Part shown: positions 21,253-42,882 of the stretch, in pieces
Position numbering within the stretch: the stretch's first letter is position 1
Layout: the number at the start of each line of letters is the position of its first letter
Assembly: GCF_017876575.1 (NCBI RefSeq)
Contig: NZ_JAGIOE010000001.1
Coordinates: forward strand, 1,178,001-1,242,000
Direction: 5' to 3'
Source of the DNA: Paeniglutamicibacter psychrophenolicus
GTDB taxonomy: Bacteria > Actinomycetota > Actinomycetes > Actinomycetales > Micrococcaceae
DNA length: 64,000 nucleotides
Made by a program: the position numbers and the translations under genes
Notes under the pieces: generated by a model
Database searches by the model: none
What the model was told of the DNA's origin: nothing
Seen by the model: only the letters and a program-made list of their open reading frames with translations

Positions 21253-21373
21253 GTCCGTTCCTTTCTGTGGCGGCACCTGCCGCCGGGTGTTTGTCCGTGG
21301 AAGCCGCTGGCTCCGCACGTGTGCCGGCCAGTGCGGGCCGGCGGTGTCGTGGGTGCGCGTCCTTGGCCGGGGC

Positions 21374-26288: not shown

Positions 26289-26397
26289 GCCAATACCTCT
26301 TTCGGTGAGAACAGTCGATTCTTTGCCGCGACGGTTCAAGATGATGCGACCAATTCCCGGGATATGGAGTGATCGGCGCCACAGCGTAAGTTGTATT

Positions 26398-26406
26398 CTG
26401 TATACA
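26398..26406 (-). promoter_or_regulatory. CTGTATACA operator-like site upstream of the glycoside importer
   Basis: CTGTATACA matches nine of ten bases of the palindrome CTGTATACAG found upstream of four other transcription units in this window. It lies 110 bp before the start of the binding-protein gene. This is the weakest member of the set by position and context. Confidence 0.45.
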
Positions 26407-26941
26407 TGAGACACCTTGTGTCAAGTTCCACTTTGTTTATTTATGTTCGAAGCAAGGCGCCGGTCTGGGCTTGTCGACCGGCATGGGTCCGCGCAAACAT
26501 GCGGAATTTCCAGTCCCACCACCGGTGATATTGTACCCATCGCGCAAATATGGTTGCTTTTGTTCGAAGTCGAACAAAGTGTTTTGGGGTCGATTTCGGC
26601 CCCCGGAGTCGCGCGGGGGACTTCTTCGCGCTCCCCGGGGTGGCACGGCGGCGTGCCCGCACGCGTCGCCCGGTCCGCATTTGCGCGGCGCCCCTGGCGG
26701 GCGCCTGCCGCGCCCTTGCCCGCGCCCTTGCCCGCGCGCGGCCCGGGGCCCCGTGGTGGGCTGACTGAGGTACTGGCGTGCCCGTGGAGACCGCGCCCGT
26801 CGACCTCCAGTCGCCGGATAAACAGTTCACCGAATGGCAATGGCTCATGGGGCCGAAAGGATTTCCGATGGCCGGTGATGTTGCCGGCGGTTTCGATTCC
26901 GGCTGCCTCACAGATACCCCTTGACGGGGACACGCACGCGA

Positions 26942-26967
26942 AGCGGGCCGGAATAATCCGGCCCGCT
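26942..26967 (-). terminator. Hairpin downstream of the SDR gene (27027)
   Basis: A perfect 11-bp stem AGCGGGCCGGA/TCCGGCCCGCT (26942-26952, 26957-26967) with loop ATAA lies 60 bp past the SDR stop on the minus strand. No T-run follows on that strand; it probably ends the amidohydrolase operon. Confidence 0.65.
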
Positions 26968-27026
26968 CGAGTCTTTCGTTGGCTATTGAGTTGGTTGTTC
27001 AGCAATTCGTCCAGTGGCGTGTGCGG

Positions 27027-27782
27027 CTACTGGGTCCGGTACGACGAAGCGGTCCCTCCGGCAAGTTCCCCGCCGTCCACCACCAGCTGCTGCCCGGTGA
27101 TGAATCTGGCGTTGTCCGAGGCCAGGAAGAAGAAAGCGTCGGCAATCTCCGTCGGATCGGCGTGCCTGCGCATCGGAATCCGCTCGTTGACCTCGGCCAG
27201 CATATCGTCGGTGTATTCGCTCCGCTGCATCGGGGTCAGCACGTACCCCGGGCTGACACAGGCGGTGCGAACCCGGGGCGCAAGCTCCAGGGCGACGCTG
27301 CGGCAAAGTGCGAGCACGCCTGCCTTGGACGCGTTGTAGTCCGAGTACCAGGGGTACCCCGCTGATCCGTTGGTGGAAGCGGTGGCCAGCAGGGTGCCGG
27401 AACCCGCCTCGAACATGATCCGGCCGGCGGACTGCCAGAGGTTGATGACGCCGAAGAGATTGATCTCCAGCAATCGGCGGATGTCTTCCGGCTTCATCTC
27501 GAGGAACGCGTGCCGGGTGCTGATGCCGGCATTGGCGATGGCCGTATCGATCCCGCCTTCCTCGGCGGCGATGCCTTCCACCACCGAGCGAACCATTGCC
27601 GGATCGGTGACGTCGCATTCACGCCACTGCGCGGAGCCGGAAGCGTTTGCCGGCGGCTGCCTGTCCAGGTTGAAGACCCTTGCGCCTGAGGACGAAAAGC
27701 GTTGGGCCGTGGCTTCCCCGATGCCCGAGGATGCACCGGTGATCAGCACCACCGGTGTCTGGTTTGTCGCGGTATCAGTCAT
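27027..27782 (-). CDS. Short-chain dehydrogenase/reductase (SDR)
   Basis: The 251-residue protein is a classical SDR oxidoreductase: cofactor loop TGASSGIGEATAQRF (14-28), ANAGIST, NLFGVINLWQ, catalytic serine in TASTNGSAGYP, and the YNASK Tyr/Lys pair. The C-terminal FITGQQLVVDGGEL is typical. An acidic residue after the second strand (FNLDRQ) favours NAD over NADP. It is the last gene of the operon amidohydrolase-binding protein-permease-ATPase-SDR, 6 bp after the ATPase. It probably oxidises a hydroxyl intermediate of the imported compound. Confidence 0.9.
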   Translation of the reverse strand: MTDTATNQTPVVLITGASSGIGEATAQRFSSSGARVFNLDRQPPANASGSAQWRECDVTDPAMVRSVVEGIAAEEGGIDTAIANAGISTRHAFLEMKPEDIRRLLEINLFGVINLWQSAGRIMFEAGSGTLLATASTNGSAGYPWYSDYNASKAGVLALCRSVALELAPRVRTACVSPGYVLTPMQRSEYTDDMLAEVNERIPMRRHADPTEIADAFFFLASDNARFITGQQLVVDGGELAGGTASSYRTQ

Positions 27783-27788
27783 GGTCGA

Positions 27789-28595
27789 TCACAGCACCTT
27801 GGAGAGGAACTGCTGGGTCCTTTCGTGCTGCGGGTTGGCGATGAGTTCGCGGGGATTGCCCTTTTCCACCACGACGCCGCCGTCGATGAAGGCCAGCGAA
27901 TCCGCGACCTCACGAGCGAAACCGATTTCGTGCGTCACCAGCACCATGGTCATGCCCCCGACCGCCAGGGACTTCATGACCTCCAGCACCTCGTCGACCA
28001 GCTCCGGATCCAGGGCCGAGGTCGGTTCATCGAACAGCATGACCTGGGGATCCATCGCGAGGGATCGTGCGATGGCGACGCGCTGCTGCTGGCCGCCGGA
28101 AAGCTTCATGGGGTACTTGTGGCCGTGGCCGGCCAGTCCCACACGCTCCAGGAGTTCCTCGGCGCGTGCCAGGGCCAGTTTCTTGGGTTCGCCCTTGACC
28201 CGGGCCGGACCGCAGGCAACGTTTTCCAGCGCCGTCATGTTGGCGAAGAGATTGAAGCGCTGGAAGACCATGCCTACGTTGAGGCGGAACTTCGCGTACT
28301 CGGCGGAATTCCATTCATGGAACTTGCCCTTGCGGTAGTTGAATCCCACGTCTTCGCCGTCGATCCGGATGCGGCCGCCGTTGGGTTTTTCCAGCGCGTT
28401 GAGGCAGCGCAGGAAAGTGGACTTGCCCGAGCCTGAGGGACCGATGATGCAGGCGACCTCCCCTGCCTCGACCGAGAAATCGATGCCGGAGAGCACTTGG
28501 TGGTTGCCGAAGCTCTTGGTGACCTGTTCGGCCAGCACCAGTGGAAGGTGCCCCGCCGTCCCGGTCTCCGCGAGTGAGGTCGTCGTGCTGGTCAT
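27789..28595 (-). CDS. Polar amino acid-type ABC transporter ATP-binding protein
   Basis: The 268-residue cytoplasmic ATPase of a GlnQ/HisP-type importer has Walker [11 protein letters not shown]-loop [14 protein letters not shown], signature [13 protein letters not shown], Walker [14 protein letters not shown] and the H-loop VTHEIGF. It carries about 20 extra N-terminal residues. It overlaps the permease gene by 4 nt. Substrates of this class are amino acids, opines and similar zwitterions. Confidence 0.94.
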
Positions 28596-29566
28596 GGAGT
28601 GCTCCTTGGCGGTTCGGTGCGAAGTCGCTGGCCCAGCGCCGCTAGGTTGTCGCGGGAAAAGAACGGTTTGGAGAACTTCTGGCGCTTGCCGGTGATGGGG
28701 CGGTCCGCCGTGCCGAACTTCTTTTCAAGCTTTCCCTGGAAGTACGTGGCGATGACGGTCATGGCCATGTACCAGATGCTGGCCACGATCAGCAGTTCCA
28801 TGATCTTCCCGTTTTGCTTGTAGATCTGGCTGGCGTTGGTCATCAGGTCGTTGCCCGCGACCACGTAGACCAGCGAGGTGGTCTTGAGCATGGAAATGAA
28901 CTCGTTGCCGATCGGCGGGATGATGATCCTCGTGGCCTGCGGCAGCACCACCACCCACATCCGCTTGAACGGGGTCATGCCGATGGATGCCGCGGCCTCG
29001 GCCTGGCCCGGATCCACGGCCTGGATGCCCGCGCGCACGGTTTCCGCCGCGTAGGCGCCCAGATTCAGGCCCAGGCCCAGCATGGCCGCGGTGAAGCCGG
29101 TCATGACCACGTTGGTGTCCCACATGTAGCCGATGTTCGTGAACGGGATCTTGATGACCAGCTGTGGGAACAGGAAGGCCAGGTTGAACCAGAAGATCAG
29201 CTGGACCAGCACCGGGGTTCCGCGAAAGAACCAGATGTAGAGGTTGCTGATCCACACGGCAACCGGGTTGGCGGAGAGCTTCATCATCGCCAAGGCCACC
29301 CCGATGGCCAGTCCCATGATCGTGGCCAGGATGGAGAGCTGGATGGTGACCAGCACACCGTCCAGGATCTTGGGGAACGTCAGGTAGTGCAGGACGTCCC
29401 CCCAGATGATGTGGTCATTGGTGGCCAGCACCCAGACGAACCAGCTGATGCCAGCGATGCACAGCAGCGCTACGATGAGGCGCCCCGGGTGGCGCAGCCG
29501 GACGGTGTTGCCGGGCCCGGGTTGCTCGACCAGCCGCGGCGGTGCCGCGACTTGTTCCTGGGTCAT
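28592..29566 (-). CDS. Polar amino acid-type ABC transporter permease
   Basis: The 324-residue permease has the HisM/GlnP signature: [36 protein letters not shown] and [20 protein letters not shown] (EAA loop). An N-terminal membrane segment ([20 protein letters not shown]) precedes the core, making it longer than the usual 220 residues. A single permease implies a homodimer. It starts 3 bp after the binding-protein stop. Confidence 0.93.
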
Positions 29567-29569
29567 GGC

Positions 29570-30529
29570 CTACTTGCCCTGGTTGACGGTTGCCTCGGGA
29601 AGCGCCATCTGGTCCAGTTCCCAAGCGCCGAGGATCTCGGTGTAGGTGCCGTCCTCGATGAGCTTGTTCATGGTGTCCTGGATCAGCTTCACCAGTTCCT
29701 CGTTCTTCGGGTCGATCGCGATGCCGAACAGGGAGCTGCCGGGGATTTCGATGGCTTCCAGCGCTCCGTTGGATTCCTTGGCGCGGAAGACCGCCACCGG
29801 GTAGTCGTTCAGACCGGCGACGGCGCGGCCGTTTTGCACCTGCAGCAGGGCCTCGGGGTCGTTGGCGAAGCCCAGGATCTTGATGGGCTTCTCGTTCTTG
29901 GCCTCGCAGTCCTTGCTGAACTGTTCGGCCAGCTGCATGTAGTACCCGTTGTCGAGCACAGCCATGGTCTCGCCACAGAGGTCTGCCGGGGACTTGATGC
30001 CCTCCGGGTTGCCCTTGGCGACCATGATCGAGCCCGAGGACTTGGCGTAGTCGACGAAGGAGACCTTTTCGCGGCGCTCGGCGGTGTCGTTGAAGCCCGA
30101 CATCAGCACGTCGAAGCGACCCGAGACGACGCCGGGCATCATGCCCGAGACATCCGAGTTGCTGATCTTGGCCTCGACTCCCAGCAGGTTGCCCATGGCG
30201 CGGGCCAGGGACATGTCCACGCCGACCATGGTCTTGCCGTCGGTGTCGAACATTTCCATCGGCGGATAGCCTTCGGCCGCTGCGATCTTCAGTCCGCCGG
30301 TCTTGATGGCTTCCGGAACGCGGGCCGCGAGGTCGGAATCGACAGTGATGGCCGCGATCTGGGCGGCCGCAAGGTCGCCTGAAGGTGCGGTGTTTTTGAA
30401 CGCGCCCGCCTCCGCGGCACCGGAAGCCGAGGGGGTTTCGGCCAGGGACTGGCCGCCGCATCCGGTCAGGGCTGCTGCGCCCAGGGTGAGAACGGCAGTG
30501 AAAAGCATTCCTCGCTTGAAGGATTTCAT
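29570..30529 (-). CDS. Polar amino acid-type ABC transporter substrate-binding lipoprotein
   Basis: The 319-residue family-3 solute-binding protein has a lipobox (TLGAAALTGCGGQ), then GGLKIAAAEGYPPMEMFDTD, GVDMSLARAMGNLLGVEAKI, RFDVLMSGFNDTAERREKVS and YPVAVFRAKESN. A Ser/Ala/Pro-rich linker follows the lipid cysteine. AAGGAG precedes the ATG. It sits between the amidohydrolase and its permease. FNDTAERREKVSFVDY is the usual ligand-carboxylate region, so the ligand probably has amino-acid character. Confidence 0.93.
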   Translation of the reverse strand: MKSFKRGMLFTAVLTLGAAALTGCGGQSLAETPSASGAAEAGAFKNTAPSGDLAAAQIAAITVDSDLAARVPEAIKTGGLKIAAAEGYPPMEMFDTDGKTMVGVDMSLARAMGNLLGVEAKISNSDVSGMMPGVVSGRFDVLMSGFNDTAERREKVSFVDYAKSSGSIMVAKGNPEGIKSPADLCGETMAVLDNGYYMQLAEQFSKDCEAKNEKPIKILGFANDPEALLQVQNGRAVAGLNDYPVAVFRAKESNGALEAIEIPGSSLFGIAIDPKNEELVKLIQDTMNKLIEDGTYTEILGAWELDQMALPEATVNQGK

Positions 30530-30544
30530 GTGTTTCTCCTTGTG

Positions 30545-32134
30545 TTAGTCGGACCAGTGGATGCGGCCGTCGATGACTGTCATCAGTGTGTGGGTCGAGT
30601 GGAGTTCCAGGGGCGTGCAGGAAACCGGGTCGCGGTCAACGACGATGAAGTCGGCCAGCTTTCCGGTTTCCAGGGTTCCCTTGAGGTGCTGTTCCCCGGT
30701 GGCCCGGGTGTGCGAGGTTGCCGCGGCATGTAGGGCCTGGGAGCGGGTGAGGATCTCCTCGGGTTGCCAGCCCCCGGCAGGGAAGCCGTTGGGACGCTGG
30801 CGGGTGGTGCCGGCGTGGAGGCCATGGAAGGGGTTGGTTCCCTCGACCGGGGCGTCGGAACTGAAGGAGACTGCCCCGCCCGCGTCCAGGATGCTGCCCC
30901 ACGCGTAGGAAAGCACGTCGTGGTCGCCCAGCAGGGAGTCGACCAGCTCGATGTCCGAGGTGCAGGACGCAGGTTGCATGCAGGCCAGCGCGCCACTGGC
31001 GGCGAGCCGGGGCAGGTCGCGGCGGGCGATGTGTTGGACGTGCTCGATCCGGTTGGATGCGGCCGGCAGCGACGTGCGGTTTTGAGCGGCCAGCTCGAAG
31101 GCATCCAGGGCGTTGGAGACGGCGCGGTCGCCGATGGCGTGCACTGCGGCGGACAACCCGTTGTGGTTGGCGAGCTTGACCAAGCGGTTCAGCTCCTCCG
31201 GCGCGGTGACGGCCAGGCCCTCGGAGCGGGAGTGGCCGTAGGGTGCGTGCATGAGGCAGGTGCCCGATGAGAGGGACCCGTCGGAGAAGATCTTCACGCC
31301 GCCGCGCCGCAGCCAGGGGTCTCCCTGTCCGCTGCGCACGCCCTGCTCAATGATGTGGTCCAGCACCGCGACGGGCATGATCTTGTTGACCCGCAGTGGA
31401 AGTTCACGGCGTTCATGCAGGTCGGAGAAGGCATCCCACGCGTCCATGCCGTCGATGTCGTGAATGGAGGTGATGCCCTGGCGGACCAGGGTGCGCAGTG
31501 CTGAGGGCAGCAGCTTCGCAAGGGCGTCCCGGGTGACTTCCTCCAGGGCCCGGCCGGCGTTGAATCCGGCGGCTTCCAGCAGGATGCCGGTGGCGGAGCC
31601 GGAGGTGTCGCGCACGATGGTTCCACCGACCGGGTCGGGGGTTGCCGCGTCGATACCGAGGTATGCCAATGCCGCGGAGTTCAGCCAGTAGGTGTGCAGG
31701 TCCGAGTGGTGCAGTGCGGTGGGGTGGGAACCGGTGGCGGCGTCAAGTTCGTGCCGGTCGGGGAGTTCTGTTTGGTCCCATGCGCGGTGGTTCCAGCGGC
31801 CGCCGAAGATCCAGCTGGTGGAGTCGCCGGGTTCGAGCTGCGCCACGCGTTGGGCGACCAGGGCGACGGCTTCCGAGGATGAGCTGGCGGGGGAGAGATC
31901 GACTTCAGCCTGGCGCAGTGCGAACTGGGCGGTGTGGATGTGGCTGTCGGCCAGTCCGGGCATCGCGTGCGCCCCGCCGAGATCGATGCGTCGTGCCTGC
32001 GGGGCAAACTCCCGGGCCTCGCCGACGGATCCAAGGAAGCGGATCCGGCCCTCGTCCGCAACCAGGGCGGATGCCGTCGGATTGTGCGGGTCGAGGGTAT
32101 GGAAAACAGCATTTTCGTACACCGTGAACGTCAT
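30545..32134 (-). CDS. YtcJ-like metal-dependent amidohydrolase
   Basis: The 529-residue protein belongs to the amidohydrolase-3 group (YtcJ and N-substituted formamide deformylase relatives), which hydrolyse amide or related C-N bonds. Metal-binding His65 and His67 lie in LADSHIHTAQF. Later ligands are in GVKIFSDGSLSSGTCLMHAP, HAIGDRAVSNALD, RIEHVQHIARRDLP and FSSDAPVEGTNPFHG; the last aspartate is the catalytic base. There is no signal peptide, so it acts on imported substrate. It heads an operon with an amino-acid-type importer and an SDR. A CTGTAT-ACCGC-ATACAG site lies 65-81 bp upstream. Confidence 0.9.
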   Translation of the reverse strand: MTFTVYENAVFHTLDPHNPTASALVADEGRIRFLGSVGEAREFAPQARRIDLGGAHAMPGLADSHIHTAQFALRQAEVDLSPASSSSEAVALVAQRVAQLEPGDSTSWIFGGRWNHRAWDQTELPDRHELDAATGSHPTALHHSDLHTYWLNSAALAYLGIDAATPDPVGGTIVRDTSGSATGILLEAAGFNAGRALEEVTRDALAKLLPSALRTLVRQGITSIHDIDGMDAWDAFSDLHERRELPLRVNKIMPVAVLDHIIEQGVRSGQGDPWLRRGGVKIFSDGSLSSGTCLMHAPYGHSRSEGLAVTAPEELNRLVKLANHNGLSAAVHAIGDRAVSNALDAFELAAQNRTSLPAASNRIEHVQHIARRDLPRLAASGALACMQPASCTSDIELVDSLLGDHDVLSYAWGSILDAGGAVSFSSDAPVEGTNPFHGLHAGTTRQRPNGFPAGGWQPEEILTRSQALHAAATSHTRATGEQHLKGTLETGKLADFIVVDRDPVSCTPLELHSTHTLMTVIDGRIHWSD

Positions 32135-32198
32135 GCAGGGCCCCCATCATGCGGTGATTTTTCGCCATTCGAAGCTCCTGTGCATCGAATACTTTGCA

Positions 32199-32215
32199 CT
32201 GTATACCGCATACAG
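32199..32215 (-). promoter_or_regulatory. Operator-like site upstream of the amidohydrolase operon
   Basis: CTGTATAC (32199-32206) forms, with ATACAG (32210-32215), the inverted repeat CTGTAT-ACCGC-ATACAG. It lies between gntR (terminator side) and the amidohydrolase start at 32134. It resembles the CTGTATACAG palindromes at 33111, 40393 and 40578. Confidence 0.6.
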
Positions 32216-32310
32216 ATTCTGTTCAAGACTTTTCTTGATCCATTCAACAGGTGGCTCAATTGTGACCTGGCGTGGGGGTTCTTGGGGTCGGCGACCTTGT
32301 GGAGAAATGC

Positions 32311-32355
32311 AAAAAGCCGCGTCGGGAATCCCTGAGGGGTTCCCGACGCGGCTTT
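32311..32355 (-). terminator. Intrinsic terminator of the second gntR gene
   Basis: A perfect 16-bp stem (AAAGCCGCGTCGGGAA at 32313-32328, TTCCCGACGCGGCTTT at 32340-32355) with an 11-nt loop gives TTTTT on the minus strand. It lies 14 bp past the gntR stop. Confidence 0.9.
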
Positions 32356-32368
32356 GCGGTGGGCGGTC

Positions 32369-33034
32369 CTAGACGGCCACCTTCGCGCCTTCCTTGCTTG
32401 CCATGGCCTTGCCGATGCGAGAGGTGCTGTTGAGCCAGTTGGCGGTCAGCGCCGCCTGTGCGGCGGAAAGGTCTTTCGCAATTAGCGCCTTGGCGATTGC
32501 CGAGTGCTCGGTTGCTGCTCGTTCGACGCGGTCCTTTGCTCCAACGAAGAACTTCTCGTAGCGCCGCAGGGCAACCTTGTGCGAGGCGATGGTTTCCAGA
32601 AGCCGCCGGTTGGGGCATTTGGAGAGCAGAAGCTCGTGGAAATCATCGTCGTGGCTGTTGACCTCTTCGGCCAGGGCCTCGGTGGCGGTGAATGCCTGCG
32701 CTGCAGCCAGGATCCGTGGCGCAATCACGTTCAGCTCGTCCGCGGGACTAAGTTCCAGCCCGAGGCACTCGAGGGCGGCAATGATCTGCACGGCCTCGGC
32801 GAAATCGCGCTCACTGATGGGAGCCCAGCGGAAGCCCTTGCCGGAAATGCGCGTAATGACACCCTGCTGGGTTAGTGAAATGAGCGCTTCGCGCAGTGGA
32901 GTCCGACTGACGCCGAGATCGGCGGAGAGCGTTACCTCGTTGATGCTCTCGCCCATATCGAAATCGCCTGCGCCGACGCGGTTCATGATTTCTGTTTCGA
33001 TCTGTTCGCGCAGTGATTGGCGTTGTATTGCCAC
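32369..33034 (-). CDS. GntR-family regulator, FadR/FCD subfamily (CTGTATACAG regulon)
   Basis: The 221-residue protein has a GntR winged helix (REQIETEIMNRVGAGDFDMG, then DLGVSRTPLREALISLTQQG) and an FCD effector domain (HDDDFHELLLSKCPNRRLLE with metal- or ligand-contacting Asp/His, then the late histidine in EHSAIAKALI). GTG 33034 is preferred to GTG 33079 because AGGGGG lies six nt before it. A TACAAT box on the minus strand (33089-33084) could be its -10, with the palindromic site at 33104-33120 occupying its -35 region, so it is probably autoregulated. The same palindrome before nearby operons makes it the likely common regulator. The effector is unknown. Confidence 0.92.
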   Translation of the reverse strand: MAIQRQSLREQIETEIMNRVGAGDFDMGESINEVTLSADLGVSRTPLREALISLTQQGVITRISGKGFRWAPISERDFAEAVQIIAALECLGLELSPADELNVIAPRILAAAQAFTATEALAEEVNSHDDDFHELLLSKCPNRRLLETIASHKVALRRYEKFFVGAKDRVERAATEHSAIAKALIAKDLSAAQAALTANWLNSTSRIGKAMASKEGAKVAV

Positions 33035-33103
33035 TGTCGCCCCCTGGTTCTCGATAGATGAAGCACCGGATTTGATCACCTCTATTGTACTAGAGACTGG
33101 GTT

Positions 33104-33120
33104 CAGTATACTGTATACAG
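33104..33120. promoter_or_regulatory. Double palindromic operator between gntR and the NAD-kinase-like gene
   Basis: Two perfect 10-bp palindromes overlap: CAGTATACTG (33104-33113) and CTGTATACAG (33111-33120). They lie 22 bp before the kinase start and about 70 bp before the gntR start, so one bound regulator could control both directions. Confidence 0.7.
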
Positions 33121-33142
33121 AAATATGGGAGGAAGTTCACGC

Positions 33143-34291
33143 ATGAACGTGACCATCGGCTTGATTGTGAACCCGGTCGCCGGTCTTGGCGGCCGTTTGG
33201 CCCAGAAGGGCAGTGACGCCTCGGATATCCGCGATATGGCCGAGCGCGCGGGGATCGATTCCCTGGCTGCGGAACGGGCCGGGCAAACGGTTCGCCGGCT
33301 GATGGACGGGCTGGAACCATCCCGGGTTGCCGTGCGGATCCTTGCAGGTGCCGACGAAATGGGTGCCGATGCGCTCGACACCGGCACGCCCCATGAAACC
33401 GTCACTTCCGACGTCGTCCACCCCGGTGCCTCGAGTTCCGACGACACCAAATCAATGGCTCGGAACATGGCGGACCAAGGTGTCGACTTATTGCTCTTTG
33501 CCGGGGGAGACGGCACTGCCCGCGACATCCTCGACGCCGTCGGAACCCGCGTCCCCGCGCTGGGCATCCCCGCGGGCGTGAAGATCTACTCCGGCGTATT
33601 TGGCCTGACGCCTTCGGAAACCGGCGCGTTGGCCGCGGGTTGGCTGGCCAACCCGAACCGGTGCAGCGATGAACGCGAAGTCGTCGACATCGACGAGGAC
33701 GAACTGCGCCAGGGCCTTGCGACCCCCAGCCTCTATGGGACGCTACGGGTCCCCTCGGACTCCCGCAGGCTCCAGCCCCGCAAGTCCGGCAGCCCCGCCT
33801 CCGACGCCAACGCGGCCCGGTCGTTGGGCATTGCGTTCGCAGCCACCATGGTCCCGGACCGGCAATACGTGCTCGGCCCGGGAAGCACCACCATGGCCAT
33901 CGGCAGCGCACTGGGTTTGGAATTGACGCGGCTGGGAGTTGACGTCATCTGCAATGGCCGGCTCATGGCCGAGGACGTCGACGCCGAAACATTGAACTCG
34001 TTGGTCCCCGCGGAGGGGGCCACCATCGTTGTCACCCCGCTGGGGCAGCAAGGTTTCGTCATCGGGCGCGGCAACCAGCAAATCGATCACCGCGTGCTGC
34101 AACGCAGCGAGCTGAGAATCGTTGCCACGCCCTCCAAAATGATTTCCCTGGGCGGGCGACCGCTCTGGGTTGATTCGGGACATCCCGAACTCGATGCCAC
34201 GATCTGTGGCTACACCAAAGTATTTACCGGAGCGAAAGCCGAAGTAATTTATCCCATCAGCAATTCAGCTGATGCCCAGGTTCGAGCCTAA
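33143..34291 (+). CDS. AcoX-like ATP-NAD kinase family protein
   Basis: The 382-residue protein has the N-terminal fold of NAD kinases (MNVTIGLIVNPVAGLGGRLA; the GGDG motif at 121-124 in LLLFAGGDGTARD) and the longer C-terminal form of the AcoX branch (PGSTTMAIGSALGLEL, IVVTPLGQQGFVIGRGNQQI, TPSKMISLGGRPLWVD). True NAD kinases are about 290 residues. AcoX-type genes are known beside lipoyl-dependent acetoin dehydrogenase operons and their function is unsettled. GGGAGGAAG precedes ATG 33143, so the in-frame ATG at 33125 is not used. It is followed by an SDR gene after 19 bp. Whether it phosphorylates NAD, another nucleotide or a small metabolite is open. Confidence 0.85.
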   Translation: MNVTIGLIVNPVAGLGGRLAQKGSDASDIRDMAERAGIDSLAAERAGQTVRRLMDGLEPSRVAVRILAGADEMGADALDTGTPHETVTSDVVHPGASSSDDTKSMARNMADQGVDLLLFAGGDGTARDILDAVGTRVPALGIPAGVKIYSGVFGLTPSETGALAAGWLANPNRCSDEREVVDIDEDELRQGLATPSLYGTLRVPSDSRRLQPRKSGSPASDANAARSLGIAFAATMVPDRQYVLGPGSTTMAIGSALGLELTRLGVDVICNGRLMAEDVDAETLNSLVPAEGATIVVTPLGQQGFVIGRGNQQIDHRVLQRSELRIVATPSKMISLGGRPLWVDSGHPELDATICGYTKVFTGAKAEVIYPISNSADAQVRA

Positions 34292-34310
34292 ACACCACAA
34301 GGAGCAGTTC

Positions 34311-35069
34311 ATGCGTTTGAAGGACAAGTCTGCAATCGTCACCGGCGGCGGATCCGGCATCGGCCGGGCCACGGCACTGGCCATGGCTGCCGAAGGCGCC
34401 AACGTCGCGATCTTCGACATCAATGAAGAGGCGGCAAAGGCCGTTGCCGCCGAAGCCGCGGCATTTGGCGTCAAGTCCCTGGGCCTGGCCGTCAACGTTG
34501 CACTGGATGAAGACGTGAAGCGCGGGGTCGCCGCGGCCGCGGCCGAATTCGGCACAGTCAACGTCCTGTTCAACAACGCAGGCATCATCCGCCGCGCCAA
34601 CGTCATCGACACCACCCTCGAGGAATGGGACCAGGTCATGGGCGTGAACGTGCGCGGCCCGTTCCTGCTCTCCAAGTACGTGATCCCGCTGATGATCGCC
34701 GACGGCGGCGGTGCAATCGTCAACACCGGTTCCGGCTGGGGGCTGAAGGGCGGCGGCGATGCACTGTCCTACTGCACCTCCAAGGCAGCCGTGGTGAACA
34801 TGACCCGCGCCCTGGCCATCGACCACGGACCGGACAACATCCGCGTGAACTCGGTGAACCCTGGCGACACCAACACCCCGATGCTGCGCGAGGAAGCCCG
34901 CCAGCTGTCCCAGGCCGAGGCCGCCTTCCTGGAGGAGTCCAACGACCGCCCGCTCAAGCGCATGGGCACCCCCGAGGAAATCGCCGAGGCCGTCATCTGG
35001 CTCGCCAGCGATGCCAGTAGCTACGTCACCGGCGCGGCACTGGTTGTCGACGGTGGCGGCATCGCCTAA
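34311..35069 (+). CDS. Short-chain dehydrogenase/reductase (SDR), second in the regulon
   Basis: The 252-residue classical SDR has TGGGSGIGRATALAM (10-24), FDIN after strand two (acidic, so NAD-preferring), NNAGIIRR, NVRGPFLLSK, catalytic serine in GSGWGLKG, SYCTSKAAVV with the Tyr-x3-Lys pair, and a C-terminal YVTGAALVVDGGGIA. AAGGAG precedes ATG 34311. It is co-transcribed with the kinase-like gene and ends in a strong terminator. It resembles 3-hydroxy or polyol dehydrogenases; the substrate is not visible. Confidence 0.92.
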   Translation: MRLKDKSAIVTGGGSGIGRATALAMAAEGANVAIFDINEEAAKAVAAEAAAFGVKSLGLAVNVALDEDVKRGVAAAAAEFGTVNVLFNNAGIIRRANVIDTTLEEWDQVMGVNVRGPFLLSKYVIPLMIADGGGAIVNTGSGWGLKGGGDALSYCTSKAAVVNMTRALAIDHGPDNIRVNSVNPGDTNTPMLREEARQLSQAEAAFLEESNDRPLKRMGTPEEIAEAVIWLASDASSYVTGAALVVDGGGIA

Positions 35070-35086
35070 ACAACGCATGCAAGACG

Positions 35087-35131
35087 GAATGCCGCCGTGC
35101 GAAGCCTAGCTTCGCACGGCGGCATTCTTTA
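35087..35131 (+). terminator. Intrinsic terminator of the kinase-SDR operon
   Basis: A perfect 19-bp stem (35087-35105 with 35109-35127) around the loop CTA is followed by TTTA. It lies 17 bp past the SDR stop. Confidence 0.92.
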
Positions 35132-35263
35132 CGTTCCCCTCGTCGGGGGTACGCGAGGACCTAAAATTGTAGATGCCTACGTTAGCCGAGGACCGCGGCG
35201 AAGCTGGTTTGCGAAAGTGGCTCCAGTTGCCCGCTGTGTTTCGAGAGGAACCAGTGCATTCTT

Positions 35264-36916
35264 TCACTCGGTAACAGTAGGCTCCTCGAGAGCTCCAACT
35301 AGTTGGACTTTTTTGTGATAGTCGAAGTGACTCTTGACCTGTTCCGAGACATCAATGTTCCTCAGTTTGATTTCACTCGGTGTGAAGCCCGTGAGACCGG
35401 CTGGGGATTGTCCTGCCTCGGCGACTTTGTAGGCAACTTTTAGGACGCCGTCATCGGTCGAATGGTAGTTGTAAACCGCATCGTCAACCGCTGCGGTCAG
35501 GGTGTGCCAGTCGCTCTTGGCTCCGATAGCAGCACCCAGAAGATGGAGGGCTTCGATCCGTGGACCATCGGGTTTGGTTCCCAAGGCCTGAGCAGCGAGC
35601 ACCATTGCCCTGGCGCCGAGGCTATGGCCCACCAGCACATAGGATTCCTCGTTGGTTCGGGCGAGCAGGTCGGCCAAAATGGCGCCGGTTTTCTCAGCAC
35701 GATTCTTGGCGACGTGCCAGGGGTTCTTGGCCAGTTCGACAACGACCATGGCTGGCGCGAGCGGACCAAGCGTCCTAACGGCCCGCTTTGCGGCTTGCGC
35801 TGCGACCTTCTTCAGGGCGGCTCCGATGGCGAATCTTGCTGCTGCGTCGCCACCGAGGAGTCCCAGGTCTTTGAGTTCCTTGGCGCCCCAGTGGACCCGA
35901 TAGACAGGTGAGTCAGGGTATCGCTGAGTGATGATTTCCCGCCACTCTCCCCAACCTTTCCCGGTCTTGCTGAGGAAGCCATTGCAGACGACTACCGGTA
36001 CACCTGTTCCTCCGCACAGCATTTCGATATGGAACGACTTGTCTTCCTGCACATAGGCGTTCGCAACAGTGGAACCCAGCACGCCACCCAGAGCGGCTCC
36101 AATTCCTGTGACTACGGCAGTGCCTCCGGCCATGCCCAGTCCTCCGGCGGCAATCGCCCCGCCTCCTAGGAACGCAAGCCCATAACTGGTGGCGGCTGCG
36201 CCGGAGTAACCTCCTACGAGCACGCCGACAGCACCTCCGATGGCAGATGCGCCGAAATAAGCGAACGGCGTGGCTAGTGCGATTCCAGCACCAGCGAGAC
36301 CAACAACTTTAACGGCACGAGCAAGGTTGGGTTTGTCGTATTTGAGGAACTGTTCGTAGTCGTTGAGTGCCCCCATTTTGCTGTTTGCCTTGGCGAAACC
36401 GGGGGTTTTATGAAGGTGTTCGGCGCAGTACCGCTGTATTAGGACAGCACCTTGCCCTCGCGTGGCCATGTTTCTGCAACCAAGCCCTGCGCATGGAAGG
36501 GTTGGCGATCCGCAGTCATCACACAGATAGGCAGGCAGCTGGCCCAGCGGCCGCTTCGCCTTAATATGGTTGTGCAGACCGAAGCAGGCAGAACACCAGC
36601 CGTGCTTCTTCTCAGTCGTGAGTTCGTCTGCCACGCCGACGATCCACTCCGCCGTCTTGCGGTGCGCCTCCGCTCGCTTCTCGGCGTTCTTCTGCTGCTG
36701 TTGATCAGGCAGGTTGACCGCGGCATACCTGTCCATTGCAAAAGCCCATGCGCTGTTTACCAAAGCGCGGTTGTTCCCGAGCCCGACTTTTTCGAAGGTG
36801 GGCTCTTCACCCGTAGTGTTGCCGGTCAGTGTGAGCTTTTGGCCACTAGGCGAAACGATCTGACATTGAATCTGGTTTCCCTCAAGGACGCGGGCGACAA
36901 CCTTCGATTTCTGCAT
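35264..36916 (-). CDS. DUF726-like membrane alpha/beta hydrolase with Cys-rich N-terminal region
   Basis: The 550-residue protein has three parts. Residues 1-170 are hydrophilic and contain paired cysteines (CSACFGLH, CDDCGSPTLPCAGLGC, RYCAEHLH) that look like zinc sites. Residues about 205-300 are glycine/alanine-rich membrane segments (VGLAGAGIALATPFAYFGAS and the like). The rest is an alpha/beta hydrolase domain with PVVVCNGFL (oxyanion strand), the nucleophile elbow YVLVGHSLGARAM and a late histidine near DYHKK. The order and GHSLGA match DUF726 (TMCO4-like) proteins, lipase-like enzymes of unknown substrate. It is isolated, less GC-rich than its neighbours and interrupts the surrounding regulon. 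The start at 36916 has only a weak ribosome site. Confidence 0.75.
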   Translation of the reverse strand: MQKSKVVARVLEGNQIQCQIVSPSGQKLTLTGNTTGEEPTFEKVGLGNNRALVNSAWAFAMDRYAAVNLPDQQQQKNAEKRAEAHRKTAEWIVGVADELTTEKKHGWCSACFGLHNHIKAKRPLGQLPAYLCDDCGSPTLPCAGLGCRNMATRGQGAVLIQRYCAEHLHKTPGFAKANSKMGALNDYEQFLKYDKPNLARAVKVVGLAGAGIALATPFAYFGASAIGGAVGVLVGGYSGAAATSYGLAFLGGGAIAAGGLGMAGGTAVVTGIGAALGGVLGSTVANAYVQEDKSFHIEMLCGGTGVPVVVCNGFLSKTGKGWGEWREIITQRYPDSPVYRVHWGAKELKDLGLLGGDAAARFAIGAALKKVAAQAAKRAVRTLGPLAPAMVVVELAKNPWHVAKNRAEKTGAILADLLARTNEESYVLVGHSLGARAMVLAAQALGTKPDGPRIEALHLLGAAIGAKSDWHTLTAAVDDAVYNYHSTDDGVLKVAYKVAEAGQSPAGLTGFTPSEIKLRNIDVSEQVKSHFDYHKKVQLVGALEEPTVTE

Positions 36917-37341
36917 GCTGTCATATTCTCATGCGCAGGTCGCCGCGATGCTCATCAACCAGAGCGGGCGCGCCTTACCCAGCGAGGTGTGCATCGAGCT
37001 CGTGCAGCACGGCCACCCTATGTCAGTCTGGCGCGTTACGGGCGTGATAGATCCAATCGATTCGATAGCAACCGGTCGGAAACCATGAACCCAAGAAATT
37101 GTTCAGCGGATAGGCGCCGCGGGTTGCCTGGGTTCATGACGCTTGCGGGGCTCATCCGAGTTGACGGATTCAAACGCCTGATGCATCAGCGTTTGCCACA
37201 ATCTATTCACTTCTGGCTTGACTGGGGGAAAGGCTGTCAGAGTTATTAGCAACGTGAGCCCAGACATGGCGATACCCATGTGGGCTGCCGCCGGGAACCC
37301 GGCGACAGCCCACATGGGTTATCCGTTAGTCATCTATCTGG
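36917..37341. other. Gene-free region with three palindromes
   Basis: No coding frame is convincing. It holds an inverted repeat CATGAACCCA/TGGGTTCATG (37084-37093, 37129-37138), a near-perfect palindrome of CAAACG and CGTTTG arms around CTGATGCATCAG (37171-37195), and the terminator hairpin described separately. The region is less GC-rich than the flanks and may mark the boundary of the inserted DUF726 gene. Confidence 0.5.
37274..37320 (-). terminator. Hairpin downstream of gcvPB
   Basis: ACCCATGTGGGCTG (37274-37287) pairs with CAGCCCACATGGGT (37306-37319), and GCCGGG/CCCGGC pair inside. It begins 22 bp past the gcvPB stop. There is no clear T-run on the minus strand. Confidence 0.7.
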
Positions 37342-38943
37342 TTAGCCCACCGAAACGGGTTCTTCAGCCAACGTCGCCTCGACGCCGCTGAAGTACTTCT
37401 TCTGGTACGAGCGCCAGGTGATGGCCCAGCGTGCTGGATCGTCCAGGTCGTCGTGGTCGATCTGGTGGACGGTCTGGTTGTGCGGGGCTGAACGCACCAG
37501 CTCGGGGTTCTCCCGGGCCTCGGTGGCGACCTGTGCCAGCGCCGCGACGTACTCGTCGATTTCGGTCTTGGAGTACGATTCGGTCGGCTCCAGGGTGAAC
37601 GGCTGCGGGACCAGGTACGGGTGGTGGCTGGTCCAGTAGTGCATGCCGTAGTCGCTCATGCGGATGCCGATTTCCTCGGAGCTGATGCCGGTGTCCTCGA
37701 ACAGTTCCTGCCAGGAGTAGCGGACCTGCTCGATGCGGTGCTTGCCCGTCGCGTACGGTGCGCTGGCGCCCGGGATCTGGCGGACCAGCGCCAGCAGGTA
37801 GTTGTTGTTCAGCACGGCGATCTCGGCGACCTGGCGCAGGCCGGAGGCGCCCAGTGCCATGATCCAGGCGTAGGCGCGGACCACGTTCGGGGCGACGCCG
37901 AAGAACGGCGCAACCTTGCCGATGGACTTCTCGCCGCCGTAGTTCACGGTGAAGCCGGCGTCGGTCTTTTCGATGCGCGGGTTGGGCAGGAACGGGGCCA
38001 GACGTTCGGAGACGGCGCTGGCGCCGGCACCCGGACCGCCGCTGGCGTGCGGGGTGGAGAAGGTCTTGTGCAGGTTGAAGTGGCACAGGTCGAACCCTGC
38101 ATCCGAGGCGCGGGTGATGCCCAGGATGCCGTTGGCGTTGGCCTGGTCGTAGGCTGCAAGGCCGCCGGCCTCGTGGACGATCTGCACGAACTCGCGGATC
38201 TTGTGGTTGTAGATGCCCGTGTCTTCGGGGTTGGTGATCATCAGGGCCGCGGTGCGCGGGGAAACCGCGGCGCGCAGCGCCTCGATGTCCGGGTAGCCGT
38301 TGGCGTCCGGCATCAGGGTGATGACCTTGAAGCCGGCGGCCTTGGCACAGGCGGCATTGGAGGGATGGGAGAAGATCGTGGTGATGACCTCGTCGCGCAC
38401 CTCGCCCTCGCCGTTGGACTCGTGGAAGGCGCGGATCATGGAGATGTTGGCCCAGATCGCGGCGGAGCCGCCCTGGGTTTGCAGGCTGACGGCGTGCATG
38501 CCGGAGATCTCGGCGATCGCCTGCTCGGTGCGCCAGAAGATCTCCAGCACGCCCTGCAGCGAGGCCTCGTCCTGCAGCGGGTGCAGTTCGGCGAGCTTCG
38601 GGGTGCGGATGATCGTCTCGTTGACCTTGGGGCTGTACTTCATGGTGCAGGTGCCCTGGCCGATGTCGACGTTGAAGTCGGCTCCCAGGTTCTCCTGGCT
38701 GATGCGCAGGTAGTGGCGCACCACGCGCATCTGGGCCAGTTCCGGAAGCGCGGGGGCGCTGGCGCGGCGCAGCGAGGACAGCTGGTCCTCGACGGCGCCC
38801 AGGGCCTCGACGGCGGCCGGCTCGGCCTGGGAGACCAGGATGCCGCGCTCGCCGGGGGTGCTGAGTTCGAAGATGATCGGCTCATCCCAACGGGCCTGGT
38901 GGAACCGGCGGTGGGCTGGCTTGGGGCTGACTGGAAGGGCCAT
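37342..38943 (-). CDS. gcvPB: Glycine dehydrogenase (aminomethyl-transferring) subunit 2, GcvPB-like
   Basis: The 533-residue PLP subunit of a two-subunit P-protein has the cofactor lysine at 293 (CHFNLHKTFSTPHASGGPGA). Other blocks are TMKYSPKVNE, TQGGSAAIWAN, SHPSNAACAKAAGF and MITNPEDTGIYNHKI. The P-protein decarboxylates glycine and passes the aminomethyl group to lipoyl GcvH. ATG 38943 follows AAGGAG; the open frame extends far upstream but only inside gcvPA. The usual length is about 490, and the extra residues are at the C-terminus. Neither gcvT nor gcvH is near. Many substitutions around the conserved TNPNTLG-like stretch (here TNPEDTG) suggest a divergent paralogue that might act on another amino acid. 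Confidence 0.88.
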   Translation of the reverse strand: MALPVSPKPAHRRFHQARWDEPIIFELSTPGERGILVSQAEPAAVEALGAVEDQLSSLRRASAPALPELAQMRVVRHYLRISQENLGADFNVDIGQGTCTMKYSPKVNETIIRTPKLAELHPLQDEASLQGVLEIFWRTEQAIAEISGMHAVSLQTQGGSAAIWANISMIRAFHESNGEGEVRDEVITTIFSHPSNAACAKAAGFKVITLMPDANGYPDIEALRAAVSPRTAALMITNPEDTGIYNHKIREFVQIVHEAGGLAAYDQANANGILGITRASDAGFDLCHFNLHKTFSTPHASGGPGAGASAVSERLAPFLPNPRIEKTDAGFTVNYGGEKSIGKVAPFFGVAPNVVRAYAWIMALGASGLRQVAEIAVLNNNYLLALVRQIPGASAPYATGKHRIEQVRYSWQELFEDTGISSEEIGIRMSDYGMHYWTSHHPYLVPQPFTLEPTESYSKTEIDEYVAALAQVATEARENPELVRSAPHNQTVHQIDHDDLDDPARWAITWRSYQKKYFSGVEATLAEEPVSVG

Positions 38944-38945
38944 TG

Positions 38946-40316
38946 TTACTTCTCCTTCAGGAAATCGGTGAGGGCTGAGACCAGGGTGTCGATGTGTGCC
39001 GTGGTGATGCGTTCGGTGACGCAGACCAGCAGGTTGTGTTCGCCGATGACCACGCCGGGCTCGATGTTCAGTGCGCGCAGGGCGGTGACAACCTCGGCCG
39101 CGGTCTTGCCCGAGGCCGAAAGGTCGAGCACGAATTCGCGGAAGTGCGCGGCCGAGTCGCCGAGTGAAACGCCGTCGATGCCGGCGAGCTGCGCCTGGGC
39201 GTAGGCGGTGCGTGCCAGGACGGTGTTGCCCAGGTCGGACATGCCGGTCGGGCCCATCGAGGCCAGGTAGACGCCGGCGGCGATGCCCCAGAGGGCTGCG
39301 GCGGTGCCGACCCATTCCTTGCCTTCTTCACGCAGGGCGAAGGAGGTGCGGTCCCAGGCGACGTCGCCGAAGCCGTACTCGCCCTCGACGGAGGTGCTGG
39401 CCAGGCCGAAGAGGCGCGAGGGCATCTCCATGATGAACTTCGGGTCGTCGTGCACCGCGATGAAGCCGCCGCGTCCGCCGCCGAACCACTGGTGGATGCC
39501 CAGGGACTGGATTTCGCCGCAGACGATGTCGGCTCCCCAGTCGGCCGGGGGAGTGATGCTTCCGTAGGCGATCGGGTCGGTGCCGACGACCAGCAGCGCG
39601 CCGGCCTCGTGGGCCAGGTCCGCGATCACCTGGCCGGAGGTTTCCAGCCCGCCGTGGAAGCTGGGGGTCTGGATCCAGACCGCGGCGGTGTCGGCGTCGA
39701 GCCGTGCGGCCAGGGCAGCGGTGTCGACCAGGCCGTTGACACTCGGCACAAAGACCAGCTCGGTGTGGCTGCGCACGTAGTCGGTGACCTTGGAGACCAG
39801 ATCCGGGTTGGTGTCGGAGGCGACGATGATCTTCGAACGTCCGGTGATGCGTCCGGCCATGGCCAGCGCCGTGGCTGTGGCCTGCATGCCGTCGTAGGTC
39901 GGCACGTTGACCACGTCCATGTTGAGCAACTCGCCCATCATGGAGGTGTACTCGAACAGTGCCTGGAAGCGGCCGTGGTCCTCGTAGGGCTCGCCCGCGT
40001 AGGCGGTGAGGAATTCGCTGCGGTTGATGACCTCGTCCACGACGGACGGGACGTAGTGGTTGTAGACGCCGGCGCCCAGGAAGCTGATGACCTCGCGGGT
40101 GCTGCGGTTCTTGTTCAGCAGCCCGGTGACGTGCTCTTCCAGTTCGGCCTCGGCAAGGAACGGCTCCGGGAGGTTCAGCAGGCCCTTGACGCGCAGGCTC
40201 TGGGGAATGTCTTCGTAGAAGTCCTCGATGCTGGTTGCTCCGGTGACCGCGAGCATTTCCTCGATGACCGAGGGAACCGTATTGGGAATGTAGGGGTGAA
40301 CTGTGGAATTTTGCAT
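38946..40316 (-). CDS. gcvPA: Glycine dehydrogenase (aminomethyl-transferring) subunit 1, GcvPA-like
   Basis: The 456-residue N-terminal-half subunit has YIPNTVPSVIEEMLAVTGAT, SFLGAGVYNHYVPSVVDEVI, FLTAYAGEPYEDHGRFQALF, EYTSMMGELLNMDVVNVPTY, and ALREEGKEWVGTA, the GcvPA pattern (compare LTAYTPYQPEISQG). The canonical PYQPE-QG stretch is altered to GEPYEDHG. AGGAGG lies upstream of ATG 40316. It is coupled to gcvPB (2-nt gap). CTGTATACAG lies 77-86 bp upstream. Actinobacteria usually carry a single-chain GcvP, so a split, T/H-less copy suggests a specialised role. Confidence 0.88.
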   Translation of the reverse strand: MQNSTVHPYIPNTVPSVIEEMLAVTGATSIEDFYEDIPQSLRVKGLLNLPEPFLAEAELEEHVTGLLNKNRSTREVISFLGAGVYNHYVPSVVDEVINRSEFLTAYAGEPYEDHGRFQALFEYTSMMGELLNMDVVNVPTYDGMQATATALAMAGRITGRSKIIVASDTNPDLVSKVTDYVRSHTELVFVPSVNGLVDTAALAARLDADTAAVWIQTPSFHGGLETSGQVIADLAHEAGALLVVGTDPIAYGSITPPADWGADIVCGEIQSLGIHQWFGGGRGGFIAVHDDPKFIMEMPSRLFGLASTSVEGEYGFGDVAWDRTSFALREEGKEWVGTAAALWGIAAGVYLASMGPTGMSDLGNTVLARTAYAQAQLAGIDGVSLGDSAAHFREFVLDLSASGKTAAEVVTALRALNIEPGVVIGEHNLLVCVTERITTAHIDTLVSALTDFLKEK

Positions 40317-40630
40317 GGAAGGTCGCCTCCTGCTTTTGTCATGACCCGGCACATTCCCTGGGGGCGCAGCGCGGGATAACTTTGATGAAATTCTGTATAC
40401 AGTGCACATTATGCGGAATTGTTGCGAGAGTCAATTGTGACCCACGCCGCTCCTCGGGCGGGGCCGGGGCCCCGTGCGAGGAGCTCGGAGGGGGCCCCGG
40501 GCCTGGGGTAGTCGCGTGTGTCATTTTGGTTGGATTTGATGGAAAAAGTCCGAAAACTATCCCAAATGTTTTGAATACTGTGTACAGTGTCGTCAACTAA
40601 CGAGGTCTTCCTGACGACAAGGAGCTCCAA
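40317..40630. promoter_or_regulatory. Divergent control region with two operators and a central GC-rich hairpin
   Basis: The 314-bp region separates gcvPA (minus) from the second sugar-type importer (plus). CTGTATACAG lies at 40393-40402 on the gcvPA side and CTGTGTACAG at 40578-40587 on the importer side, 44 bp before its start. Between them CTCCTCG/CGAGGAG (40450-40456, 40477-40483) encloses GGGGCC/GGCCCC in a strong hairpin that may insulate the two promoters. No gene is present. Confidence 0.65.
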
Positions 40631-41940: not shown

Positions 41941-42882
41941 ATGACCACCACGTTGACGCGGCCCTCCGCACCGAAGGAGGGCCGCTCCTCGGCCCGCTCC
42001 GCAGCAGGCCGGGCGGCGCGGCGGGCCGCCCGCCGCCACCGTCCCGGATATTTCTTCATCGCCCCGGCGCTCGCCCTTTTCGCCCTGTTCTTCATCTATC
42101 CGCTGGTCTCGTCGTTCATCCAAAGCTTCCAGTCGATATCCGGCGGGGAAACCAGCTGGGTGGGCCTGGCCCAGTACCAGCGGTTGTTCGACGATCCGCT
42201 GGTGGCCCAAAGCCTGTTCAACGTCTTTTTGATCCTGGTCATCCAGGTGCCGCTGATGGTGTGCATCGCTATTGCCCTGGCCTACATCCTGAACCAAAGC
42301 TGGGTGCGCTTCCGGACCGGGTTCCGGGCCATCTACTTCCTGCCCGCGGTCACCACGCTGGTGGCCTACTCGCTGGTCTTCAGGGTCATGCTGGCCACGG
42401 ACGGGGGCGCGGCAAACCAGATGCTGGGCATGTTCGGGATGGACCCGATCGACTGGCTCAACTCCGAGGGCTGGGCGCGGGTGGCGCTGATCGCCTCCAT
42501 CACCTGGCGCTGGACCGGCTACAACATGATCATCATCCTGGCAGGCCTGCAGGCGATCCCCGCGGAGCAGTACGAGGCCGCCCGGATCGACGGGGCCGGC
42601 CGCTGGGCGGTGTTCTCCAGGATCGTGGTGCCGCAATTGCGCCCGGTGATCCTGTTCAGCTCCATCACCTCGACGATCGGCGCACTGCAGCTCTTCGACG
42701 AGAACTTCATCCTGACCGGGGGAGGACCCAACAATGCGACCCTGACCCCGGTGCTGTACCTCTACAAGGTCGGCTTCCAGCAATTCGACTTCGGCTATGC
42801 CTCGGCCATCGCCTGGCTGGTCGTGGCCATCATCGCCGTCATCTCCGTTATCCAATTCCGAATCATGAGGGAAAAATCGTGA
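41941..42882 (+). CDS. Carbohydrate-type ABC transporter permease (MalF/UgpA-like)
   Basis: The 313-residue permease has a basic Ser/Ala-rich N-terminus, six hydrophobic segments from residue 38, and the EAA loop YEAARIDGAGRWAVFSRIVV. It sits 2 bp after the binding-protein gene and shares one base with the next permease. No ATPase follows, again implying a shared one. Confidence 0.93.
   Translation: MTTTLTRPSAPKEGRSSARSAAGRAARRAARRHRPGYFFIAPALALFALFFIYPLVSSFIQSFQSISGGETSWVGLAQYQRLFDDPLVAQSLFNVFLILVIQVPLMVCIAIALAYILNQSWVRFRTGFRAIYFLPAVTTLVAYSLVFRVMLATDGGAANQMLGMFGMDPIDWLNSEGWARVALIASITWRWTGYNMIIILAGLQAIPAEQYEAARIDGAGRWAVFSRIVVPQLRPVILFSSITSTIGALQLFDENFILTGGGPNNATLTPVLYLYKVGFQQFDFGYASAIAWLVVAIIAVISVIQFRIMREKS

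Follow-up and report, generated by a model that had tools for sequence, protein, structure and literature searches.

What would hold together, around one gene for a GntR-family regulator, an amidohydrolase, amino-acid- and sugar-type importers, glycosidases, dehydrogenases, a kinase and a pair of genes resembling those for the glycine dehydrogenase subunits GcvPA and GcvPB? The question is raised by a 64,000-nucleotide stretch of Paeniglutamicibacter psychrophenolicus DNA, here called the window, which is C1:1178001-1242000 of a 4.91-Mb genome in two contigs (genome code G000). A first-pass annotation had proposed that a palindrome ahead of each transcription unit, at 26398, 32199, 33104-33120 (double), 40393 and 40578, marked a single GntR regulon, and a pattern search found every one of these sites in place. 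Our analyses make it probable that one dedicated GntR repressor with an FCD effector domain controls a local regulon at five promoters, as predicted from its sites, around a divergent core of the kinase and the GcvPA/GcvPB-like (GcvPAB-like) pair.

The palindrome at the promoters around gntR

The 10-bp palindrome CTGTATACAG was matched exactly at 33111 and 40393, with one mismatch at 26398, 32199 and 40578, and with two at 33104. Within the window alone this 10-mer was at chance level, with 8 copies at up to two mismatches and 6.31 in shuffled sequence (standard deviation 2.33). Across the 4.91 Mb there were 3 exact copies, 2 of them inside this region, and five of the 22 copies with at most one mismatch lay within its 14.2 kb, where an even spread predicts 0.06. 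The same genome-wide search with the 10-mer written backwards gave 27 copies, so the word as such is not enriched or specific; only its location is.

Side-by-side comparison indicated that the five sites share a longer, 15-bp palindrome, TGTATACNGTATACA. At up to two mismatches this 15-mer occurs at 5 places in the 4.91 Mb, all five at these promoters, and its backwards control at none. At three mismatches there were 16 further places genome-wide, one of them overlapping the site at 26392; the backwards control had 13 places at up to three. A chance origin of the sites was rejected on their genome-wide location and their conservation in relatives, despite the null result in the window alone. 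The 15-bp form replaced the 10-bp palindrome as the full site on the evidence of outer bases conserved on both sides in 26 sites; the first-pass annotation had thus recognized a palindrome that is present, but had taken too short a word for the site. It had also named wide occurrence at unrelated promoters as grounds for abandoning the regulon, and the 15-mer has no such spread.

Because the 15-mer was read off these same five sites, the independent test lies in the genomes of relatives. The closest named relatives found, by identity of the GntR protein, were Arthrobacter (97% for Arthrobacter sp. AQ5-05, 66% for A. silviterrae and 64% for Arthrobacter sp. 35W). Eight other genomes carried the GntR gene with the cluster, a conserved neighbourhood of the kind the earlier proposal had called for, and the 15-mer recurred near gntR in all eight. 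These genomes held 42 places at up to two mismatches, 32 of them within 16 kb of gntR, and all 23 places with one mismatch fell within that distance; the backwards control found 3 places in the same genomes. Twelve same-genus genomes without the cluster (as judged by the kinase; the GntR gene itself was not sought there) had 7 places at up to two mismatches versus 8 for the backwards control, and 2 sites with one mismatch.

The site between the gntR and kinase genes was identical in the 9 genomes compared, and the 15-bp blocks flanking it were 32-51% identical among 7 diverged genomes in an ungapped comparison. An alignment of 26 sites from 9 genomes, in which each overlapping pair is represented once, showed G2, C7, G9 and C14 to be invariant, an invariance that is partly circular as the sites were chosen by matching. 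Genome G180 is missing the amino-acid importer, and the site before the amidohydrolase is missing there too. No site at up to three mismatches was found in the 20 kb around the locus in a second kind of relative (G190, G049, G230 and G007), in which the kinase is at 38-40% identity and no GntR relative was seen. Together, these data support the proposal that the sites mark one GntR regulon.

The predicted operators and the units read from them are as follows. Operator 1 (26392-26406; TGTATACAGAATACA on the minus strand, 13 of 14 specified bases) precedes importer A and the MGH1-like and GH42 genes, and Operator 2 (32200-32214; TGTATACCGCATACA, 13/14) lies ahead of the operon of the amidohydrolase, the amino-acid-type importer and short-chain dehydrogenase/reductase (SDR) 1. 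Operator 3 (33105-33119; AGTATACTGTATACA, 13/14) sits between the divergent genes for gntR, a unit by itself, and for the kinase, which forms a unit with SDR 2. Operator 4 (40394-40408; TGTATACAGTGCACA, 12/14) is in the promoter of the gcvPA/gcvPB-like genes, and Operator 5 (40572-40586; TGAATACTGTGTACA, 12/14) is ahead of the second sugar-type importer, B; Operators 2 to 5 are given without a strand. The earlier count of one or two sugar-type importers can therefore be corrected, both having a site. The site scan found none before a DUF726 gene at 35264-36916; this gene lies inside the cluster, a DUF726 query was unmatched in the relatives' loci compared, and it looks like a bystander.

The scanned region has a single promoter-like match, TTGACA-18-CAGAAT (26424-26395), and Operator 1 overlaps its second hexamer. 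The gcvPA promoters, as read from an alignment, have TTGAC(T/C), 14-15 bp and a CATAAT-like hexamer in 7 of 7 genomes, and in all seven the last T of this hexamer is the first base of Operator 4. We infer that such placement would fit repression by blocking of the start region.

The gntR gene (32369-33079, minus strand) is given as the longest open reading frame; its true start may be nearer 33034. Its product scored above the cut-offs for PF00392 and PF07729, a winged helix plus an FCD effector domain, and is a new member of a known regulator family. The gene lies in the middle of the set and, as had been noted, has a site of its own: the palindrome with a GTATAC core sits at its promoter. 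Atu1419 of Agrobacterium fabrum, a characterized FCD/VanR-type repressor, is comparable in having a GntR helix-turn-helix and an FCD domain, a GTATAC-based site with a critical G and partner C (ATGTATACAT), and autoregulation together with several promoters at one catabolic locus, features predicted here from the sites; its effector is methylene-tetrahydrofolate (PMC7797058). Unlike the Atu1419 site, the conserved site here spans 15 bp and contains two GTATAC cores at a spacing of 7 bp, and its four G/C positions are invariant. A local, autoregulated FCD-type GntR regulon is, as a prediction from the DNA, well supported.

Paired sites of the CTGTATACAG type also lie near another FCD-GntR gene (G000:C1:3720482-3720554, L003 1438-1510), where the third exact copy is just upstream of the GntR domain and is preceded, at a distance of 63 bp, by a copy with one mismatch. 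This pair probably serves as the operator of that gene. Its placement suggests that the 10-mer is recognized by FCD-type regulators in general, with the 15-mer as the specific form. The claim of confinement to these promoters thus holds for the 15-mer and fails for the 10-mer. Elsewhere, two one-mismatch CTGTATACAG sites lie 727 bp apart (G000:C1:2397812 and 2398539; L013, L014) in a region with Sua5-like and glycosyltransferase-4 genes; none of the three frames scanned there was a GntR gene.

Several observations weigh against a single dedicated and strictly local repressor. In relatives, 10 of the 42 sites are remote from the cluster, and 6 of the 23 nearby one-mismatch sites fall outside the stretches retrieved and have no gene assignment. 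Operators 4 and 5 carry two mismatches each, and the region has no excess of promoter-like matches (1, as against 2.5 in shuffles, standard deviation 1.6). The sites could instead be generic ones common to several related FCD-GntR regulators, with cross-regulation in place of one regulon, as the pair at the other FCD-GntR gene and the binding of ATGTATACAT by Atu1419 (PMC7797058) would allow. We consider this quite improbable, as that pair is absent from the 15-mer places at up to three mismatches, and the 15-bp site accompanies this GntR gene in relatives. Position alone also leaves open the sign of control, and the GntR protein could be an activator of these units; activation is very improbable given the sites of gcvPA and importer A, which coincide with a -10-like hexamer or come immediately after it, the usual place for a repressor to bind.

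The GcvPAB-like pair and its kinase partner

The pair comprises a GcvPA-like subunit (38946-40409, minus strand; the open reading frame includes Operator 4, and the true start is downstream) and a GcvPB-like, pyridoxal phosphate (PLP)-dependent subunit (37342-38940, minus strand; start near 38940), each of a divergent group. A full, fused GcvP is encoded elsewhere in the genome (C1:1728528-1731305), as is a GcvH, the only one found (C1:1732590-1732928). The pair in the window is therefore extra and not the main glycine decarboxylase.

We compared the pair with proteins from canonical loci and from loci with the kinase (module loci). The GcvPB tree placed 22 module and 33 canonical sequences on the two sides of one branch, and the GcvPA tree did so for 18 module and 34 canonical sequences, both with 100/100 support; the module group stood on a long stem of 1.65 changes per column in the GcvPB tree. 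For GcvPB these were 22 of 23 module loci (L075 had no match) and 33 of 36 canonical loci (L104 had no match; L103 and L118 were under 350 residues). For GcvPA they were 18 of 23 module loci (L065 and L076 had no match; L066, L068 and L069 were short after trimming of the start) and 34 of 36 canonical loci (L106 and L109 were likewise short), and the fused GcvP (L072) entered this set as its first 480 residues.

The canonical motif YTPYQPExSQG was nearly constant in the 34 canonical GcvPA sequences. The window protein reads AG-EPYEDHG at this place, and nearly all the other module sequences read xG-xxxxDHG, with DQG in one. The second tyrosine of YTPYQ was present in 34 of 34 canonical and missing from 18 of 18 module sequences. 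K754 places the printed human chain at an offset of 43, by which the motif tyrosines correspond to human Y161 and Y164, which are listed as active site (PMC7259800). In GcvPB, group-specific changes were found at H404 (to E) and V407 (to R), in 22 of 22 module sequences, the canonical residues being present in 33 and 30 of 33. H291, K292, T293 and F294, the PLP lysine and its core, were common to at least 97% of the 55 GcvPB sequences.

Relatives of gcvT or gcvH were found at 24 of 35 canonical loci and at 0 of 26 module loci. Some genomes give two loci in this count, the 11 canonical loci without such genes are 2.9-4.3 kb long, and two loci are about 4 kb; the H-protein query set also contained some off-frame translations of the locus it came from, which can only add matches.

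The module enzyme is a variant of a known fold. It resembles the two-subunit P-protein (e.g., that of Thermus thermophilus, 1wyt) in being a PLP heterodimer with the PLP lysine kept, and the window proteins are 28-41% identical to the canonical P-protein sequences compared. It differs in its separate tree group, the loss of YTPYQ, the other group-specific residues, the lack of any gcvT/gcvH seen, and a constant kinase partner. On these comparisons the pair is probably mislabelled as glycine dehydrogenase, and the core's reaction is probably not glycine cleavage by the lipoyl-H-protein route.

The partner, an AcoX-like kinase of the ATP-NAD-kinase family (33125-34291, plus strand; start probably 33143), scored above the cut-offs for PF01513 and PF20143 and has a GGDGT motif kept in at least 95% of 24 sequences. 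No solved relative was found by sequence at E up to 0.01, and an AlphaFold model from 4 sequences was poor (mean predicted local distance difference test 60.4, predicted template modelling score 0.43). AcoX of acetoin catabolism has been called a predicted NAD kinase (PMC9676059), and an ATP-NAD kinase gene has been described together with one for a 2,3-butanediol dehydrogenase (PMC6722718). The likeness drawn here is one of annotation: an NAD-kinase-like label and a dehydrogenase partner, which here is the adjoining SDR 2 (34272-35069, plus strand, by family profile). Unlike AcoX proper, the kinase here has the GcvPAB-like pair for a partner, and no acetoin dehydrogenase subunit was seen among the scanned window genes or in the annotated plasmid tables.

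The kinase was found in 13 of 395 family genomes (E up to 1e-30), and GcvPA/GcvPB-like genes lay within its 20-kb stretch in all 12 other than this one; one of these, G283, has a broken gcvPA/gcvPB-like copy at the syntenic place (L061 13754-15849) and a whole second copy (L062 1838-4769), adjoining a GH42-like gene. Among 396 phylum genomes it was found in 3, this one included, and both others carry a GcvPA- or GcvPB-like gene in the locus. Thirteen plasmid records had the kinase, three of which were not looked at, and in 7 it lies beside gcvPA-gcvPB (Rhodococcus qingshengii, R. jostii RHA1, Roseicitreum, Antarctobacter, Sphingomonas, Paracoccus and Gemmobacter). An SDR gene is nearby in 6 of these 7; Sphingomonas has zinc alcohol dehydrogenases instead. 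Natronosalvus carries the kinase and GcvPAB-like genes on one plasmid, about 57 kb apart. A module of the kinase, the GcvPAB-like pair and usually a dehydrogenase is therefore present in actinobacteria and alphaproteobacteria. Our searches of open-licence papers turned up no description of it, which is weak evidence of absence.

Other module loci had features of their own. In the second kind of relative, a short 3-hydroxyacyl-CoA-dehydrogenase-like gene and major facilitator superfamily transporters join the core (L068 7893-8717, L071 11598-12431), and a similar dehydrogenase-like gene lies near the module of Paracoccus aminophilus. The kinase reading frame of G190 (L050, G190:C1:236519-237631) has one TAG inside the match. 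In Peptoclostridium acidaminophilum (L081 7992-10068), a gene of this kinase family overlaps that of a HisC/CobD-like PLP enzyme, another kinase-PLP pairing. Threonine-phosphate-type chemistry, considered for the kinase on this lead, is weak, as this PLP neighbour fits HisC better than CobD and is below both cut-offs. A connection to the BluE threonine kinase was among the readings set aside.

Importers and hydrolases of the regulon

The gene identities proposed earlier were confirmed by Pfam and NCBIfam, except that gcvPA/gcvPB belong to the divergent group and not to a housekeeping glycine decarboxylase. The unit behind Operator 2, all on the minus strand and assigned by family profile, consists of an Amidohydro_3 family hydrolase (30545-32134), an amino-acid-type binding protein (SBP_bac_3, 29570-30529), an ATP-binding cassette (ABC) permease (28592-29566) and ABC ATPase (27789-28595) of the same type, and SDR 1 (27027-27782). 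Behind Operator 1, also on the minus strand, are the sugar-type binding protein A (SBP_bac_1, 24969-26414), whose open reading frame includes the operator and whose true start is downstream, and, by family profile, the sugar-type ABC permeases A1 (23998-24972) and A2 (23099-24001), the MGH1-like glycoside hydrolase (21374-23095) and the GH42 beta-galactosidase-family enzyme (19204-21318). Importer B, on the plus strand and likewise assigned by profile, has a sugar-type binding protein (SBP_bac_1, 40631-41938) and permeases B1 (41941-42882) and B2 (42879-43700).

The likeness of the MGH1-like (mannosylglycerate-hydrolase-type) and GH42 enzymes to known systems is that of family membership of two glycosidases. 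The best solved relative of the MGH1-like protein is a distant one (E 3e-26, partial), and its substrate is not predictable; the solved relatives of the hydrolases and binding proteins did not point to one substrate. In four genomes (G269, G182, G221 and G056) importer A and the MGH1-like gene follow directly on the GcvPAB-like genes, so that the link between the glycosidase set and the core extends beyond the window.

A proposed pathway and its alternatives

Based on gene content and operator positions, we propose that the GntR protein represses by covering the -10/start region and would let go on binding a compound of the pathway. One small hydroxy-amino compound would enter through the importers in glycosylated and amide-linked forms, the hydrolases would free it from these conjugates, and the kinase, the GcvPAB-like enzyme and SDR would break it down. 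Delivery of such a compound from glycoside or amide conjugates to the core is our best guess at the substrate, and the gene content is compatible with the amide- or glycoside-linked amino compound suggested earlier.

Points that tell against a separate function for the core have to be set beside this. Both trees, which are unrooted and have no outgroup, drew warnings about long rows and about long branches that join one another. The first motif tyrosine survives in nine of the 18 module GcvPA sequences, among them that of the window, and the same nine have another tyrosine two places past the gap. Many P-protein residues are kept along with the PLP lysine, and NCBI models score the pair above both GcvPA and GcvPB cut-offs, so the substrate may still be glycine. 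The pairing itself has gaps, as Peptoclostridium has the kinase and no GcvPAB within 8 kb, and none of the three neighbours scanned of an Aeromonas kinase is GcvPAB. Module loci outside this group showed neither glycosidases nor sugar importers, so the core's substrate is not defined by these genes.

Housekeeping glycine cleavage was set aside as the role of the pair, and is kept here only in the form of a second, inducible glycine decarboxylase that would use the housekeeping H-, T- and L-proteins in a pathway releasing much glycine. The NCBIfam scores, the PLP lysine with its HK-T-F motif and the presence of GcvH in the genome would all suit such an enzyme. The long stem of the separate group, the second motif tyrosine missing from all module sequences and a constant partner that is the kinase and not gcvT/gcvH argue against it, and we regard it as unlikely, if worth taking seriously.

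Pairings of a kinase with a PLP lyase occur in the breakdown of amino alcohols and of hydroxylysine. We speculate that the kinase and the GcvPAB-like enzyme could form a new phosphorylation-dependent PLP pathway, a bolder extension of the proposed breakdown route that we rate as rather improbable. The AcoX-like kinase would phosphorylate the hydroxyl of the amino compound, and the GcvPAB-like enzyme would form its usual carbanion, with phosphate loss replacing transfer to the lipoyl arm of H-protein. The phosphate being the leaving group, no lipoyl acceptor would be needed, and the product aldehyde or ketone would go to the SDR. The regulon of the Arthrobacter group would then feed the core with glycosides whose sugar masks the same hydroxyl.

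A GntR regulon of one gene cluster is ordinary in kind. The value of this one is that it ties a gene set, and one inducer, to a module whose genes, in actinobacteria, alphaproteobacteria and haloarchaea alike, automatic annotation labels as glycine dehydrogenase subunits. With the conserved site and its repressor there is a direct handle on that module: the compound that releases the repressor, or the inducing substrate, would identify the job of the kinase and the GcvPAB-like enzyme. It would also show how, if at all, the P-protein fold can operate with no lipoyl H-protein dedicated to it. If phosphorylation does drive the reaction, this would be an enzyme family of several phyla that is now filed as glycine dehydrogenase.

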